The notes beneath the pieces were generated by a model. The model was not told the origin of the DNA. It ran no database searches and worked only from the letters and a program-made list of their open reading frames with translations. A stretch of 64,000 bases of DNA, from positions 1 to 64,000 of the forward strand of contig DYLK01000007.1 of assembly GCA_020722065.1 (NCBI GenBank). Direction: 5' to 3'. The stretch comes from Melioribacter roseus (GTDB lineage Bacteria > Bacteroidota > Ignavibacteria > Ignavibacteriales > Melioribacteraceae). A program made the translations under genes and the position numbers. This document shows, in pieces, positions 10,614-55,773 of the stretch (position 1 is its first letter; every line of letters starts with the position of its first letter).

Positions 10614-10687
10614 TGACCCCAACGGGGATCGAACCCGTACTCTCCACCTTGAAAGGGTGATGTGTTAACCTATTACACCATGGGGCC
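10614..10687 (-). tRNA. trnE: tRNA-Glu (TTC), copy 1
   Basis: Complete cloverleaf on the minus strand: acceptor GGCCCCA with TGGGGTC (one G-T pair), anticodon loop CTTTCAA giving TTC, T-loop GGTTCGATCC, discriminator A, no encoded CCA. Identical over its full length to the copy at 10738-10811. Confidence 0.96.
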
Positions 10688-10737
10688 TCAGAAAATGCAT
10701 TTTTTAATATACTTAAGATTAAAAATTTAAAAACGAG

Positions 10738-10811
10738 TGACCCCAACGGGGATCGAACCCGTACTCTCCACCTTGAAAGGGTGATGTGTTAACCTATTAC
10801 ACCATGGGGCC
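10738..10811 (-). tRNA. trnE: tRNA-Glu (TTC), copy 2
   Basis: Same 74-base sequence as the neighbouring copy, separated from it by a 50-base AT-rich spacer whose sequence is not repeated on the other side. This is a tandem duplication of the tRNA body only, or one homogenised by gene conversion. Confidence 0.96.
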
Positions 10812-10820
10812 GATTTTTTG

Positions 10821-10895
10821 GGTGGGAGATGGGACTTGAACCCACGACCTCCTGGGCCACAACCAGATACTCTAACCAACTGAGCTACACCCACC
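10821..10895 (-). tRNA. trnH: tRNA-His (GTG)
   Basis: Anticodon loop TTGTGGC gives GTG. The extra 5' G(-1) expected for tRNA-His is encoded at 10895 and faces C73 at 10821. The acceptor GTGGGTG against CTCCCAC leaves a U-U mismatch at position 6-67; everything else pairs normally. Confidence 0.93.
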
Positions 10896-10909
10896 ATAAA
10901 ATTAAGAAG

Positions 10910-10982
10910 TACGCCCGAGTGGGGTCGAACCACTAACCTACGGCTTAGAAGGCCGTTGCTCTATCCATTGAGCTACGGGCGC
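10910..10982 (-). tRNA. trnR: tRNA-Arg (TCT)
   Basis: Minus-strand cloverleaf with acceptor GCGCCCG and CGGGCGT (G1-U72 wobble), anticodon loop CTTCTAA giving TCT, T-loop GGTTCGACC and discriminator A. It reads AGA/AGG arginine codons, frequent in this AT-rich genome. Confidence 0.95.
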
Positions 10983-11017
10983 AAGTATATTAAAATCAAC
11001 AATTTAAGAACTATTTG

Positions 11018-11092
11018 TCGGGGCGGCAGGATTCGAACCTGCGACCTCCTGGTCCCAAACCAGGCGCGATAACCGGACTACGCTACGCCCCG
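11018..11092 (-). tRNA. trnP: tRNA-Pro (TGG)
   Basis: Acceptor CGGGGCG pairs perfectly with CGCCCCG; anticodon loop TTTGGGA gives TGG; T-loop GGTTCGAATCC; discriminator A. It is the first tRNA of the minus-strand array Pro-Arg-His-Glu-Glu, spaced by 10-50 bases, probably one transcript whose promoter lies between 11093 and about 11160. Confidence 0.96.
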
Positions 11093-48942: not shown

Positions 48943-49004
48943 ATGCTAATTCCTACCTCTTGCTTATCTTCCATTTATAAAATTTGAAACATTCTGAGAA
49001 TAAA

Positions 49005-51008
49005 ATGAAACTCCTTCTAACTTTACTTTTCTTAATTTCACTCATTTTCGCGCAATCAAAAACCGAAATCCCTGCAATATTTGGGAATAATATGGTTCTC
49101 CAACAAAATACAGAAGTAACATTTTGGGGGAAAACCAAATCGAATTCAAATGTTGAAATTTCATCGAGTTGGGGAAATTCAACAAAAACCACTTCAGATG
49201 AATTAGGGAATTGGAAAACTAAATTACGAACACCAAATTATGGGGAAAATTTTACCATAAATCTTCAATTTTCGGATACATCAATTACTTACAAAAATGT
49301 TTTAGTTGGTGAAGTTTGGCTTTGTAGTGGACAATCAAATATGGAAATGCCACTCGCTGGTTGGCTTCCTGCGGATTCCATAGAAGGTTCCAAAAATGCG
49401 ATTGAAAATTCTTATAATCGAAATATTCGTTATTTTACAGTTGAACATCAAGTTTCTGAAAAACCTGCTTTTAATTGTTCAGGGAATTGGGTGGAACAAA
49501 ATCCCGAGACAGCAGCTTCTTTCAGTGCAACCGCATTTTTCTTCGCTCAAAATATCTATAAAGAGACAAATATTCCACTTGGGTTAATTAATTCAAGTTG
49601 GGGTGGAACTCCAGTTGAAACGTGGACAAGTGCTGAAAAGTTAGCAACAACAGAAAAATATGCGAATGTTTTGAATGATATTAACAAGAATAAAGAAGAG
49701 TTTGAAAATATTTATTCTTGGTTGAATACCAGAAATAAACAAAATGTGTATGAGAAAAAGATTAATGAGCGATGGAAAAATCTAAATTTTAACGACCAAA
49801 ATTGTTCAAAAACTGACTTTGATGATAGAAATTGGAAAAATATGAATTTGCCAACTGGTTGGGAATTAACAGAAGTCGGGAATTTTGACGGTGTTATTTG
49901 GTTCAGAAAAAAAGTAATTATTCCAAGTGAATGGAAAAACAAGGATTTAATTTTAGAATTGGGACCAATTGATGATATGGACATTACTTTCGTAAATGGA
50001 ACGAAAATTGGGAGCCACGAACAAGATGGTTTTTGGAACATGCCCAGAACTTACGAAATCCCAGCAAATCTTGTAAACGACACTTCCCTTTTAATTGCAG
50101 TTCGCGTTATTGATAACCAAGGTGGCGGCGGAATTTACGGGACATCAAATTTGTTAAATATCCATCCAAAATTCTCTACCGAAACAATTTCTATTGCTGG
50201 CGAATGGAAATATCTTCCTGTTGCAGTTTTTCTAAACAACATATTTTACTCATTTGATGTAGAAACTGAAGAATTTTTTCATATTCCGAAATTACCAGAA
50301 CAATTAAATCAAAATACGCCGACAACACTTTTTAATGGAATGATTTCTCCAATTATTCCATATACAATAAAAGGGGCAATTTGGTATCAAGGCGAATCTA
50401 ACACTGGCGAACCAGAACTTTACGCAACTCTTTTTCCTTTAATGATTTCAGATTGGCGTGAAAAATGGCAAATTGAATTTCCCTTTTACTTTGCACAAAT
50501 TGCACCTTGGGATTACGGGACTAAAATTTTTTCGCAGATTTTACGAGAATCTCAATTAAAATCTCTTAAAACACCAAAAACTGGAATGGCAGTTACTATG
50601 GATATCGCTAATTCAGAAAACGTCCATCCAGCAAAAAAACGTGAAGTTGGCGAACGGCTTTCACTTTGGGCTTTAAAAAATGAATATGGAAAGGACATTA
50701 TTCCATCTGGACCAATTTATGATTCCTTTATAATTGAGAATGATAAAATAATTCTCTCATTTTTATATGATGAGGGAATGTTTCTTAAACCAATTGACGG
50801 GAAAAATAATTTTCAAATTGCTGGAGAAGATAGAATTTTTGTTGACGCACAAGTTGAGATTAAAAATAATAAGTTGGTTGTTTCTTCTGATAAAATAAAA
50901 AATCCTAAAGCAGTTAGATATTGTTGGGATAATATTTCTTATGGAACTCTTTTTAACAACGCAAAACTTCCGGCTTCTTCATTCAGGACAGATAATTGGG
51001 AAAATTAG
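49005..51008 (+). CDS. Sialate O-acetylesterase (SASA family, SGNH-type)
   Basis: Secreted or periplasmic esterase predicted to remove acetyl groups from sialic acid or other acetylated glycans. Signal peptide 1-17 (LIFAQ). The SASA blocks are GQSNME (nucleophile Ser), INSSWGGTPVETW, WYQGESN and VHPAKKREVG with the catalytic His. A jelly-roll-like insert (about 245-390, with FRKKVIIP and GGGGIYG) splits the catalytic domain, as in SIAE homologues. 667 residues. I start at ATG 49005; the TTG at 48984 adds seven residues before the signal peptide. Its stop overlaps the convergent symporter gene by four bases. Confidence 0.88.
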   Translation: MKLLLTLLFLISLIFAQSKTEIPAIFGNNMVLQQNTEVTFWGKTKSNSNVEISSSWGNSTKTTSDELGNWKTKLRTPNYGENFTINLQFSDTSITYKNVLVGEVWLCSGQSNMEMPLAGWLPADSIEGSKNAIENSYNRNIRYFTVEHQVSEKPAFNCSGNWVEQNPETAASFSATAFFFAQNIYKETNIPLGLINSSWGGTPVETWTSAEKLATTEKYANVLNDINKNKEEFENIYSWLNTRNKQNVYEKKINERWKNLNFNDQNCSKTDFDDRNWKNMNLPTGWELTEVGNFDGVIWFRKKVIIPSEWKNKDLILELGPIDDMDITFVNGTKIGSHEQDGFWNMPRTYEIPANLVNDTSLLIAVRVIDNQGGGGIYGTSNLLNIHPKFSTETISIAGEWKYLPVAVFLNNIFYSFDVETEEFFHIPKLPEQLNQNTPTTLFNGMISPIIPYTIKGAIWYQGESNTGEPELYATLFPLMISDWREKWQIEFPFYFAQIAPWDYGTKIFSQILRESQLKSLKTPKTGMAVTMDIANSENVHPAKKREVGERLSLWALKNEYGKDIIPSGPIYDSFIIENDKIILSFLYDEGMFLKPIDGKNNFQIAGEDRIFVDAQVEIKNNKLVVSSDKIKNPKAVRYCWDNISYGTLFNNAKLPASSFRTDNWEN

Positions 51009-52384
51009 ATTTTTCTTGATTTCATTCCAACAAATTGGATAATTATTGAAACCAATAAACCGACTAACATCGGTTCTGATATTTCAGTGATTATAACTGA
51101 TAAATTTAATTGTGATTTTAATATTTGCCAAATAATTGCAATTAGCGGACTTAAAATCATCTGAAGATTGAGGTATTTTTCTGAAATTCTAATTTTCGGG
51201 AAATAGGTTGAAAATACAGGCAAAATTAATCCTGGAATAATTATTGAACCAATTACGTACCAAATTTGAATTACCGACTTAAAATAAATTGAAAGAAAAA
51301 GAGCAATAATTAACGAAATTGCAATTCCCAAACGAGTTCTAAATATTAGCGATTTTTCATCTTCATTTTTTGTAGGGAATAAATCATTCGCAAAAGTTAA
51401 GCCACTCAAAAACGAAATGCTGTTAAAACTTGAAAGAATTGTGGCAAATAATCCAACATAAAATATTCCTTTCAAACCAATTGGTAAAATTTTGTCAGCC
51501 AATAAAGGAAATGCTAATACTGGATTAATATTTTCATCCAAAATCACTCTCGCAAATAAGCCAGTTGTAGTAGTTAGTAAGTCAAAAATTGCCCAAAACC
51601 CAACTGAAATGATAATTCCCCATTTTGCGATTTTTTCATTACTTGCATTTGCACTTCTTTGATGAAATCCAGGGTCAACGAATGTCCATAATGCAATTAA
51701 AAACCAAACAAAAAGATAAATTGGAGAAACATTTTCGAGAGATAAGTAGTTTTTAGGAAGATTTTGAGCAAGAAATGAAAAGTTACCATAATTAGCAAAA
51801 AGGAATAAAAACATGATTCCAAAACCTAAAAACATTAAAATAAATTGAAATAAATCTGTGGTAAGCGTTGTTCTGAAACCACCTTTTATTAAAAATCCAC
51901 CAACAATAAGAATAGAAATTATTACTCCGTAAATTTCATTGAAATTGAATAAATGAGCGAAAAGTGTTGAAATCATTAAAAGGTATGGTGCTGGATTTAC
52001 CAATAAATAAATTAAAAATGCAGCAATTTTTGATGATTTTTCGCCGTATTCAAGTTTAATTTTTTGTGGAATCGTAAGTAACGAAGCTTTACGTATCTTT
52101 TTTGAAAAGACAAACGCAAAGATAATCGCAAAAAAATAATATGGAATTCCTTGTGTAAACCAACTAATTATTCCAAATGAGTAAGTGAATTCGCCTATTC
52201 CTAAAATTCCACCATACCAAGTTGCGACGGTTGTAGCGACAAATAGAATATATCCCATTTTTTGCGAACCAGTTAGAAAATCGCTTTTTGAATTTTTCTT
52301 CGTTTTAGTAATAAATCCAATAATGAATAGAATTATAAAGAATGATATTATTATTAAATTGTCGATATTAATCAAAATACCCAC
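51005..52384 (-). CDS. Sodium:solute symporter (SSS/SSF), predicted thiamine porter
   Basis: 459-residue inner-membrane carrier with about 13 helices and SSF features: a TTVATWYGG segment in the first core helix, GQ/GIPYYF and a later FNSISFLSG block. SSS members carry sugars, amino acids, vitamins and others. It is last in an operon headed by a TPP riboswitch and containing a TonB receptor and thiN, which implies uptake of thiamine or its pyrimidine moiety; the usual porter at this position in Bacteroidota is PnuT. It overlaps thiN by 17 bases. The substrate is inferred from context only. Confidence 0.85.
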   Translation of the reverse strand: MGILINIDNLIIISFFIILFIIGFITKTKKNSKSDFLTGSQKMGYILFVATTVATWYGGILGIGEFTYSFGIISWFTQGIPYYFFAIIFAFVFSKKIRKASLLTIPQKIKLEYGEKSSKIAAFLIYLLVNPAPYLLMISTLFAHLFNFNEIYGVIISILIVGGFLIKGGFRTTLTTDLFQFILMFLGFGIMFLFLFANYGNFSFLAQNLPKNYLSLENVSPIYLFVWFLIALWTFVDPGFHQRSANASNEKIAKWGIIISVGFWAIFDLLTTTTGLFARVILDENINPVLAFPLLADKILPIGLKGIFYVGLFATILSSFNSISFLSGLTFANDLFPTKNEDEKSLIFRTRLGIAISLIIALFLSIYFKSVIQIWYVIGSIIIPGLILPVFSTYFPKIRISEKYLNLQMILSPLIAIIWQILKSQLNLSVIITEISEPMLVGLLVSIIIQFVGMKSRKI

Positions 52385-53024
52385 TTTTTAGAGTTGTTAG
52401 AAAATCTCGCATCAATAATATTTTCCCATTTGATGATATTTTAACAGGATTTTGCATTGCCAAATTGCTCGTCCCATCTTTTTCGCCAAATGGAAGAGAT
52501 TGATTTTTTAGTTCGTATTTCAAACCAATTGTGGAAATTTTAGTGAATTCATCTAAACCATACAGAGAAATTGTTTCGCCAACTTGTGTTTTAATTGAGA
52601 TTTCGCCGTTTAGCACATTAACAATTGTTTTTTGATGAACAAGATAAAGTTGAATTTTGCCATAATATTTCAGCAAATTTCCAATGTTTCCAAAAGTGTG
52701 GTCTAATCTATCACCCGAACCACCAAAAATTATTGCTTTACTAACTTTTTTAGAAATTAGATATTTAATCGCTTTTTCAATATCTGTATCATTTTGGCGT
52801 TTTATTTGCTCTGTTTTTATTCCCATTTTTTGGTAATATTTGAAATTTTCGTTGGTAATTGAATCAAAATCACCAATTATCAGATTCGGGAGAATTCCAA
52901 TTTTTCTTGTGGAATTTGCACCGCCATCCGCTGCAATCAGAAAATCAAATCCTAATGAAAGTAATTTGATTATTTCACTTTTTCTTGGTAAATATCCATT
53001 TCCAACAATTATCGCATTTTTCAC
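52368..53024 (-). CDS. thiN: Thiamine pyrophosphokinase
   Basis: Transfers pyrophosphate from ATP to thiamine to make TPP in the cytoplasm, trapping imported vitamin. The catalytic-domain motifs are ADGGAN (about 33-38), GDFDS (51-55) and QNDTDIEKA (about 76-84), followed by GGSGDRLDH; a small C-terminal beta domain binds thiamine. 218 residues is standard. Four-base overlap with the TonB receptor upstream and 17-base overlap with the symporter downstream show a single translationally coupled operon. Confidence 0.95.
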   Translation of the reverse strand: MKNAIIVGNGYLPRKSEIIKLLSLGFDFLIAADGGANSTRKIGILPNLIIGDFDSITNENFKYYQKMGIKTEQIKRQNDTDIEKAIKYLISKKVSKAIIFGGSGDRLDHTFGNIGNLLKYYGKIQLYLVHQKTIVNVLNGEISIKTQVGETISLYGLDEFTKISTIGLKYELKNQSLPFGEKDGTSNLAMQNPVKISSNGKILLMRDFLTTLKSGYFD

Positions 53025-55486
53025 AAACTCACCGAAATTCCAGCTAAGATATTAAATTCTGCAGCGGGAAAAAATTCCTTTCCAACTGCATAATGTGAGT
53101 AAAGATTATTGAAAATATTGTTTACTTGAACGAAAATTTGTCCATTTTTAATAATTTCATTCCCTTCATAATTGTATCCCAATTTCGCATTTGCTACAAA
53201 ATACGAATCAACTTTATTATCGTTATAATCTACAAAGAATGGATATTCCGAAAGATAACTTGTTAGATTTTCATCAAAATTATCTGAATAATAACTTCCA
53301 ACATATTTTAAAATAAGTGCAGACGAAAAGCTGTTTTTTGAAGCAGAAATTACGATATTTGCTAAAATTTCGGGGAAACCACCAATTTTGTTATTTTCAA
53401 GATTAATTGAATTTTGTCCATCAATTACATGAGTTCCTTCTTGAATATAATTCTTGCTCAATGTTAAATTTGATAAAATATTCAACCAATTTGTGGGTTC
53501 AAAAGTGCTTGATAATTCAATTCCACTGTGAATAGTTTTGGGCATGTTCCCAGTAATCGCATCTCCAAAAATTCCAACTTGACCATTTTTCACAATTTCA
53601 TTCTCAAACAACATATAGTAAAAATTGGCTGAAACAAATAGATTTTTATTGCGATAATTCCAACCAAGTTCAAGATTTCTCATCGTTTCTGGTTTTACAA
53701 GTGGTTCACTAAAATCATATTTCCCATTGGAATTTTGGCGAAAATTCGGTAACTCTCCGTAATATGAACCTTCAGCATCATAATAATTTTTTAACATTGG
53801 TTCGCGACTTACTTGCGACAAACTCAAAAATAGATTCATTTTTTCGTGAATTTTATAATTAAATCCAAATCTTGGATTGAAAAATGTGTTCCCGATAGAA
53901 AAATTATTAGAAAGATATTTTTCGTTAGAAATTGAATATTTGTGATTAGCAACTTGTAATTCTAAAAGGAAATTTAGCTTGGAATTGAACTGATAATTTT
54001 CATTTACAAATAGATTGAAAATAGTTTTTCCGCCTTCGTAATAATAGAATTTCCTTTCTGGAGAAAGATTTTCGGGCAAACCATTTGCATATTTTACAAT
54101 TCCAAAATGTTCGGAATTGTGCAAACGTATTTCTGAACCGAAAGTAAATTCCCCGTTTTTGTGTTGAATTTCTAATCTCGGAATCCAACCAAATTGATTA
54201 TTATTTACAGTTGCTCTTATGATTGTATTCGTAGGATTTTGTGTGGGAGAAAATCCAAAATCACTTGTTAAACGAAGTGCGTTTGTATCAGCCCAACTTC
54301 CATCAAAATCGAAATATCCATTCCCAATTATCCAAAAAACAGCTGAATTGGCAAGAATATTTTCAGAAATTTTGATTTCATTTAATAATTCAAAATGAGG
54401 TTGCGAGTAATATTCCCTTTCTTCGCTTCGTCTTTTTGTTGACCAATCTTGATATCGATTATTTTCATAATCGTAATCCCAATAACTATAATTCTCTTTT
54501 CTAAGATTTTTATCTGAAATTACGTTTTTTGGTAAACCAAGATAAACCAAACCATCGTTAATTGGTCCACCATAAAAATTGAAATTAGTTGTAATATTTT
54601 CGTCATATCGAGCAATTGCGAAATGAAAAGATTGATAATCAGCCCAAGCTAAATCTCGATAACCAGATTTTAATGTTCTACCAAATTTGGCATAAATTGA
54701 ATATTTATTATCAATCAAACCGCTTGCCGCTGAAATTTGAAACTGGCGTATATTAAAACTCCCAAAATTTGATGAAAATTTTATTTCCTTTTTATTTGAA
54801 AATGGTGAAGTAATTACATTTATTGAGCCTCCAATCGAAGGATAACCAATTAAACTATTACCAGCTCCACGTTGTACTTGAATTAAATCTGTATTGGAAA
54901 GTAAATCGGGCATATCAATCCAATAAACATTGTGATCTTCTGGGTCATTTTGTGGAATTCCATTTACAGAAATTGAAATTCGGCGTTGTTCAAATCCACG
55001 AATATTTAGGAAGGAATAACCGAGCGACCCACCGTCATCTGAATAAAATGTGGTTGAAGGAAGATTGCTGAGAATTTCGGGAATTGATTGGTTAGAAAAA
55101 TTTTCTTCAATAAAATTGCTTTTCAATTCAGAAAAACCTGCAGATTTTTCATCATTCTTTCCCGCAAAACCTTGAATTACAATTGATTGTGTAGAAAGAA
55201 TTTTCGGTTTTAAGGCAATCAAAATGCTTTTGCTTAAAAGTCTGGCAGAAACTTTTTCGGTAGAAAATCCAATGTAAGAAACTAAAATGAAATCATTCAT
55301 TTTAAGATTGGTAAGAATAAATTCACCGTTTTTATCAGTTACGGTTCCAAAAGATGAATTTTCAACTTGAACATTGGCGCCAACAAGAATTTCACCATTT
55401 TCTGAATTTACGACTTTCCCTTTCAAATTTAAATCTTGAGCAAAAATAGCCGTGCATACAAAAAGAATTACAAACAATTTTTTCAT
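53021..55486 (-). CDS. TonB-dependent outer-membrane receptor, predicted thiamine/TPP uptake
   Basis: 821 residues. Signal peptide 1-16 (AIFAQ), a CarboxypepD-regulatory-like domain (about 20-105), plug domain (about 120-230, with FLNIRGFEQRRISISVNG and VQRGAGNSLIGYPSIGGSINV) and a 22-strand barrel to a terminal ISVSL strand. This architecture is common in Bacteroidota-type receptors without a SusD partner. The TPP riboswitch in its 5' leader and thiN downstream identify thiamine or a phosphate ester as the probable ligand. Start ATG 55486 follows an AAAGGAG sequence about 9 bases upstream (complement of 55495-55501). Confidence 0.9.
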   Translation of the reverse strand: MKKLFVILFVCTAIFAQDLNLKGKVVNSENGEILVGANVQVENSSFGTVTDKNGEFILTNLKMNDFILVSYIGFSTEKVSARLLSKSILIALKPKILSTQSIVIQGFAGKNDEKSAGFSELKSNFIEENFSNQSIPEILSNLPSTTFYSDDGGSLGYSFLNIRGFEQRRISISVNGIPQNDPEDHNVYWIDMPDLLSNTDLIQVQRGAGNSLIGYPSIGGSINVITSPFSNKKEIKFSSNFGSFNIRQFQISAASGLIDNKYSIYAKFGRTLKSGYRDLAWADYQSFHFAIARYDENITTNFNFYGGPINDGLVYLGLPKNVISDKNLRKENYSYWDYDYENNRYQDWSTKRRSEEREYYSQPHFELLNEIKISENILANSAVFWIIGNGYFDFDGSWADTNALRLTSDFGFSPTQNPTNTIIRATVNNNQFGWIPRLEIQHKNGEFTFGSEIRLHNSEHFGIVKYANGLPENLSPERKFYYYEGGKTIFNLFVNENYQFNSKLNFLLELQVANHKYSISNEKYLSNNFSIGNTFFNPRFGFNYKIHEKMNLFLSLSQVSREPMLKNYYDAEGSYYGELPNFRQNSNGKYDFSEPLVKPETMRNLELGWNYRNKNLFVSANFYYMLFENEIVKNGQVGIFGDAITGNMPKTIHSGIELSSTFEPTNWLNILSNLTLSKNYIQEGTHVIDGQNSINLENNKIGGFPEILANIVISASKNSFSSALILKYVGSYYSDNFDENLTSYLSEYPFFVDYNDNKVDSYFVANAKLGYNYEGNEIIKNGQIFVQVNNIFNNLYSHYAVGKEFFPAAEFNILAGISVSL

Positions 55487-55510
55487 TATAAACTCCTTTA
55501 GAAAAGATTT

Positions 55511-55537
55511 AAAACAAAAAAGCCGTTGGAAAACGGC
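55511..55537 (-). terminator. Riboswitch-controlled intrinsic terminator
   Basis: On the minus strand GCCGTT (55537-55532) pairs with AACGGC (55527-55522) around a four-base loop and is followed by TTTTTTGTTTT. It sits between the TPP aptamer and the receptor ATG, where the expression platform should be. Confidence 0.85.
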
Positions 55538-55559
55538 AAAAGTTGGTAAAACTATTATG

Positions 55560-55635
55560 TTTTCCTACGCCAGCATTATCTGGTTCAGGTTCAAGGGTAT
55601 AATCTCAGTCCCAAATGGAACACCCCTAACGGCTT
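55560..55635 (-). promoter_or_regulatory. TPP riboswitch (THI element)
   Basis: The minus strand shows the THI-box core in order: AGGGGTG, CTGAGA, ACCCTTGAACCTG, ACCAGATAATGCTGGCGTAGG. These are the pyrimidine-sensing T-loop (CUGAGA) and pyrophosphate-sensing regions of the TPP aptamer. A transcription terminator lies about 25 bases downstream and the TonB receptor gene follows. The expected effect is termination when TPP is plentiful. The hexamer GCCGTT just 5' of the aptamer repeats the left arm of the terminator and could pair with its right arm. Confidence 0.95.
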
Positions 55636-55773
55636 TTCAGTAAATTAAAAAAACGTGTGCAAAATTAATATTTTTTCTAAAACACAACAAATAAATTATT
55701 ATTTTGACGCACTTACTAATTGAATCTTAGTTATGAGACAATTTTATTATATTTCATATAAAACGAACGTAAT

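Follow-up and report, generated by a model that had tools for sequence, protein, structure and literature searches.

The question raised by this locus is which compound is transported by a sodium:solute symporter (SSS family) that is encoded in an operon under a thiamine pyrophosphate (TPP) riboswitch. The operon lies in a window of 64,000 nt from Melioribacter roseus, by which is meant the whole stretch of DNA that was analysed. Our answer, to which we assign a probability of about 0.82, is that the locus constitutes a complete thiamine salvage operon, with the symporter as a Na+-coupled importer of intact thiamine that feeds the kinase ThiN. According to this scheme, the TonB receptor would take up scarce thiamine through the outer membrane, the SSS protein would carry the intact vitamin across the inner membrane together with Na+, and ThiN would phosphorylate it to TPP, by which it would be trapped. 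The symporter would then fill the slot held by PnuT in operons of the Bacteroides type.

All parts of the operon are on the minus strand, in the order TPP riboswitch, TonB receptor, thiN and SSS symporter. The aptamer of the riboswitch (55545..55637) matches RF00059 with 66.9 bits, compared to a gathering score of 54.3, and this is the single RF00059 match in a genome of 2.38 Mb that is listed as 100% complete. In an alignment of 33 sequences, 12 of the 17 consensus pairs of the aptamer have one or more sequences in which both partners are changed. Downstream are the gene for a TonB-dependent outer-membrane receptor of 821 aa (53021..55486; PF00593/PF07715/PF13715), which is a candidate thiamine receptor of the OMthi-like kind, thiN for a thiamine diphosphokinase of 218 aa (52368..53024), and the gene for an SSS/SLC5-family symporter of 459 aa (51005..52384), a candidate Na+-coupled inner-membrane thiamine importer, where the latter two have GTG starts. 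The reading frames share 4 bases between receptor and thiN and 17 bases between thiN and symporter, and together with the RF00059 match these overlaps confirm the arrangement and the coordinates given in the initial annotation. The assignment of ThiN is firm, with 161 bits against the TIGR01378 equivalog cut-off of 76.4, and the genome has no other match to this family. Firm is also the placement of the symporter in the SSS/SSF superfamily, with 59.3 bits against a PF00474 gathering score of 22.8; its score for TIGR00813 is below the stricter cut-off of that model (86.8 bits versus 184). PF00474 is the sole domain found in the symporter, which does not match PF04973 (the PnuC/PnuT family), and the receptor matches general TonB families only.

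Between the aptamer and the receptor gene, the leader contains an intrinsic terminator, consisting of a hairpin with a T run behind it (55522..55537, minus strand), and further down the motif AAAGGAG (55493..55499, minus strand), read from the sequence as the probable ribosome binding site for the receptor. In the ligand-free fold of minimum energy, the 3' arm of the terminator is paired with the 5' end of the aptamer, i.e., an antiterminator is formed, and part of the terminator 5' arm is paired with the aptamer 3' end. Such pairing would make the leader a transcriptional OFF switch. When the TPP level is low, the 5' end of the aptamer would hold the 3' arm of the terminator and transcription would go on, while binding of TPP to the aptamer would free the terminator and turn the operon off. 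Hairpins of this kind were seen in 11 of 13 leaders from family f1, in five of seven from family f2, in one of six from other families with the operon and in none of the remaining 22 leaders examined, the scan comprising those 48 of 61 loci for which a receptor start had been called.

That the order of these genes reflects chance can be rejected, because it recurs across diverged relatives, the symporters of which are just 35–51% identical to the one in the window. The sequence riboswitch-TonB-thiN-SSS is seen without exception in the 13 f1 loci and the seven uncut f2 loci examined, and also in further families. The relatives are mostly Melioribacteraceae, Ignavibacteriales and Kryptonia; in two Kryptonia members (L162, L171) a riboswitch precedes the thiN-linked symporter, and loss of thiamine synthesis in Kryptonia is described in PMC4737851. 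When more than 3.7 kb of upstream sequence is available, riboswitch, receptor and thiN precede the symporter in 58 of 62 named loci; in L111 and L148 all three are absent upstream of the symporter, and in L116 and L140 riboswitch and receptor are absent. Among the 80 named loci overall, 77 have room for thiN upstream of the symporter and 75 have it there, and in 68 of these 75 the two reading frames overlap. In a sample of the class to which the genome belongs, Ignavibacteria, thiN is directly upstream of the symporter in 60 of 88 symporter-bearing genomes, the other 28 not being scored as adjacent under a limit of 400 bases, by which G302 was missed although the genes are adjacent on inspection.

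Outside this class, 186 genomes of the phylum were sampled, and 20 of them have the symporter. Fourteen of these loci were retrieved, and in 13 the gene just upstream of the symporter is thiN, mostly with neither riboswitch nor receptor nearby. Since thiN and the symporter are kept together also where the riboswitch is missing, the pair is a stable unit that travels together. No riboswitch was seen near those fetched symporter copies that stand alone, away from thiN.

The claim that an SSS protein has taken the place of PnuT at the inner-membrane step can be related to the distribution of the symporter over 119 genomes of the class, which are a sample of a larger group. With the symporter called at E-values up to 1e-60, it is present in 88 of these genomes, compared to 21 with ThiC and five with a PF04973 protein. 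Exactly one of the three is found in 112 genomes, two are found in a single genome (G286, with ThiC and the symporter), and none in six, all from family f45, where at least two of the "negative" genomes are affected by the incomplete scoring of those genomes that had over 13 SSS candidates at first look. Fisher tests give 6e-14 for symporter versus ThiC and 9e-4 for symporter versus PF04973 when related genomes are counted as independent, and because related genomes are not independent, these figures weigh less than the switches within families, which are few (f5, f9 and f12) and more telling.

To exemplify, family f12 has nine genomes with ThiC and four with the symporter, and family f9 has two with PnuT and three with the symporter. 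Two of the f9 genomes (G089 and G317) have the order riboswitch-receptor-thiN-PnuT, and three (G116, G240 and G196) have the order riboswitch-receptor-thiN-symporter. This is a natural in-place swap, with PnuT and the symporter in the same slot across genera (two versus three), and together with the complementary distribution it strengthens the proposed replacement. Three of the five PF04973 genes (in G019, G039 and G164) are not linked to thi genes, so that they cannot safely be counted as PnuT, and they may be PnuC instead. The PF04973 genes of f5 and f8 adjoin cinA, lytB, VTT-domain and OmpA-type genes.

The structure of the symporter was predicted with AF2 (mean pLDDT 90.2), and along its whole length it resembles SSS structures. 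The best match among solved structures is human CHT1 (Z 37.9, 3.1 Å over 454 residues), with a narrow lead over SiaT (Z 35.6) and SGLT1 (Z 35.2); CHT proteins also come first in a sequence profile search. Residues described for human CHT1 (PMC11589582) and sfCHT (PMC13220886) were compared with those in 70 aligned symporters. The aromatic cage of CHT1, consisting of W62, Y91, W141 and W254 together with W406, is kept in part. W56, which corresponds to W62, is present in 70 of 70 symporters, position 82, which corresponds to Y91, is Y in 64 and F in six, and W375, which corresponds to W406, is present in 62. At the position of W141 there is mostly S, T or N, and the position of W254 is taken by D237, with D in 63 of 70. 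The hydroxyl pair of the Na2 site in TM8 (S346 and S347 in CHT1) is maintained, with S318 in 68 and S or T at 319 in all 70 sequences, and this would be in accordance with Na+ coupling. Two cage tryptophans are not conserved, and the likeness to CHT is therefore no proof of a cationic substrate; the site may be a cation site that has been altered for a larger ligand.

In a tree built by a quick method from 70 symporters and 11 outgroups, to which the 80 named loci contributed 12 and from which L061 and L215 (fragments) and L065 (extended start) were left out, all 70 symporters are separated with 99% SH-aLRT from PutP, PanF, ActP, CHT, plasmid SSS proteins (n = 3) and paralogues from the same genome (n = 3). 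Several outgroup branches are long, so the mutual order of the outgroups in this tree is not reliable. The lone symporter copies make up a few groups that are nested among the thiN-linked ones. The initial annotation had named two outcomes that would speak against a thiamine carrier, namely grouping with sugar or proline carriers and a thiN overlap that is not conserved. The overlap is widely kept, as described above, and the symporter stands apart from PutP, PanF and ActP of E. coli as well as from the SGLT-type carriers of its own genome. On the basis of the tree we reject a role in the transport of sugar, proline, pantothenate or acetate, and for pantothenate the TIGR02119 score is 41.9 bits against an equivalog cut-off of 328.05. 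A plain choline carrier of the CHT type is rejected because of the cage residues.

A symporter that is merely carried along in the operon could nevertheless have a substrate that is unrelated to thiamine, for instance choline, a sugar or an amino acid, given that SSS proteins have many substrates, that choline carriers are nearest among the solved structures, and that copies exist away from thiN. This we regard as very improbable: the pairing with thiN has been kept through the sequence divergence noted above, even where the riboswitch-receptor part is missing, the symporter is complementary to ThiC and exchanged with PnuT, W141 and W254 of the choline carriers are not kept, and the genome has sugar-type SSS genes of its own (vSGLT-like and SGLT1-like) at places other than the operon. 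Nor is there much probability, about four parts in a hundred, in import of a phosphorylated form, thiamine monophosphate (TMP) or TPP. Any B1 vitamer would account for the co-regulation and the missing synthesis genes, but import of TPP would leave the co-transcribed ThiN without a task, and the conserved acidic D237 in the pocket would be unfavourable for phosphates.

The remaining alternative is that the symporter carries the pyrimidine precursor HMP, as has been proposed for ThiV in SAR11; ThiV was also named in the initial annotation in connection with the thiamine pyrimidine. TPP-regulated SSS proteins have been best studied as HMP carriers in SAR11 (PMC11452348), and F240 (68 of 70 symporters) with H241 (62 of 70) in TM6 resembles the F254-plus-His trait described there for ThiV and SSSP, where Y78, D139 and F254 in SiaT numbering are given as traits of HMP/thiamin symporters. 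HMP is, however, a poor fit here. A search of the genome for pnuT and thiamine genes gave no match to PF04973, ThiC, PF02581 (the ThiE family) or ThiB, the last of which is above cut-off in none of the 119 class genomes, and in the absence of ThiC and ThiE matches imported HMP would not be convertible to thiamine. The same applies widely, in that 82 of the 88 symporter-bearing genomes of the class have no strong PF02581 match. Five f49 genomes have a ThiE match beside the SSS protein, and some members of the clade of the f49 type could use a precursor. Without ThiE an imported pyrimidine would be useless, so that intact thiamine is the simplest substrate, and it is favoured also because the adjoining ThiN acts on thiamine. 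We consider an HMP carrier in this operon highly unlikely, and we infer from the gene content that intact thiamine is the better fit. In a plasmid search for ThiV-like proteins, six distant SSS genes with 22–25% identity were obtained, and none was beside thi genes in the three regions that were opened.

With intact thiamine as the preferred substrate, the lineage would have a Na+-driven thiamine route, and as a prediction this proposal of the initial annotation is well supported. A more far-reaching suggestion, for which we put the odds somewhat short of even, is that the symporters form a bacterial clade of their own, which imports intact thiamine driven by Na+ and is distinct from the ThiV-type HMP carriers, with half a choline cage (W56, Y82 and W375) in which one cage tryptophan has become D237. 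Together with ThiN such a symporter might make a two-gene module for uptake and trapping, exchanged in place with PnuT within Bacteroidota operons, in either direction.

For SSS proteins that are controlled by TPP riboswitches, arguments have been made in favour of HMP, of thiamine and of both as substrates. In genomes without ThiC and ThiE, a symporter paired with thiN should carry intact thiamine, and these genomes therefore offer a clean test of the substrate. Compared with a facilitator, for which accumulation depends on trapping, a carrier coupled to Na+ could concentrate the vitamin to a higher degree, and this would bear on the exchange of vitamins in sediments, hot springs and bioreactors, which are the habitats of these bacteria. 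The operon studied here would use a sodium-driven carrier where gut relatives use PnuT.

Those relatives provide the comparison for the operon as a whole. The OMthi-pnuT-tnr3 genes of Bacteroides have known deletion phenotypes, and in most genomes with these genes all three are in a single operon (PMC5613172). As here, a TPP riboswitch, a TonB receptor and a thiamine pyrophosphokinase are described together with an inner-membrane carrier, but the Bacteroides carrier is PnuT (PF04973), which is unrelated to the SSS protein of the present locus. CHT choline symporters have the nearest solved fold and share W62, Y91, W406 and the Na2 serines with the clade described here, but differ from it by their cage residues W141 and W254 and by a separate branch of the tree. 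ThiV, SSSP and SSSQ, which are under TPP riboswitches, are regarded as carriers of HMP or thiamin in PMC11452348 and PMC4260697, and ThiV is among the B1 transporters listed in PMC6593275. These proteins, from SAR11, other bacteria and algae, are of the SSS family and riboswitch-controlled like the present one, but they are associated with the use of precursors, in genomes where enzymes of thiamine synthesis are retained, and a pairing with a TonB receptor and thiN is not described in the available parts of those papers. Uptake of thiamin by an SSS protein has been shown by genetics for Candida Dur31, the deletion of which gives pyrithiamine resistance, and Dur31 / NCU01977 is under a TPP riboswitch in many fungal species (PMC5997356). 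By its description this protein is of the SSS/SLC5 family like the symporter here, but it is eukaryotic and not part of an operon.

The closest counterpart is in Caldithrix abyssi, where Cabys_3975-3977 are described with a TPP riboswitch, a TonB receptor, a sodium-solute symporter and a TPK, and where thiamine transport has been proposed (PMC5317091). In the literature searched, class-wide complementarity, a PnuT swap and a half-conserved choline cage were not found in print, and the Caldithrix paper was the only description of a locus of this composition that was found among the texts available. Caldithrix abyssi belongs to another phylum, and the available part of that paper does not treat conservation or exchange with PnuT. 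Judged from the published description, its locus has the same four parts as the one in the window, and the arrangement is thus not new. With the present locus, a known kind of system gains one more case, and a much broader one.

The symporter and the thiamine synthesis protein ThiC occur together in only one of the 119 sampled genomes of the class Ignavibacteria, i.e., in G286 (family f7; symporter locus L193), and this co-presence may be the result of a recent gain or of contamination. In five genomes of family f49 (G268, G275, G290, G301, and G305), the thiN-symporter pair is accompanied by a strong match to the family of ThiE, another thiamine synthesis protein, while ThiC gave no match, and it is possible that these genomes make use of a thiamine precursor.

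Six genomes of family f45 (G248, G253, G259, G266, G273, and G279) gave no match to ThiN, the symporter, ThiC, or the PnuC/PnuT family PF04973, and ThiE-family genes are retained in four of them. Since the completeness of these six genomes is 68–94%, the absences possibly reflect gaps in the assemblies.

The symporters of family f6 (loci L182–L185) are more distant and stand alone, and in the genomes that carry them the TPP riboswitch is found upstream of a TonB receptor, away from the lone symporter. At the two f6 loci inspected, the symporter is adjoined by genes for ribonuclease HII and GTP cyclohydrolase I (L183) or by a gene for a CDP-alcohol phosphatidyltransferase (L184). Neither ThiC nor ThiE was found in f6 within the class set of 119 genomes.

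In the window, ORF and domain searches place an acetylesterase of the SASA type, which also carries a GH2 sugar-binding-like domain, on the plus strand (48984–51008). Its ORF is convergent with the symporter ORF, and the stop ends of the two overlap by 4 bases (51005–51008). Five tRNA genes are clustered elsewhere, on the minus strand (10614–11092).

At two f9 loci, L190 (genome G089) and L192 (G317), the riboswitch, TonB receptor, and thiN are followed by a PnuT-family gene instead of the symporter, PnuT being the inner-membrane carrier of Bacteroides-type thiamine operons.
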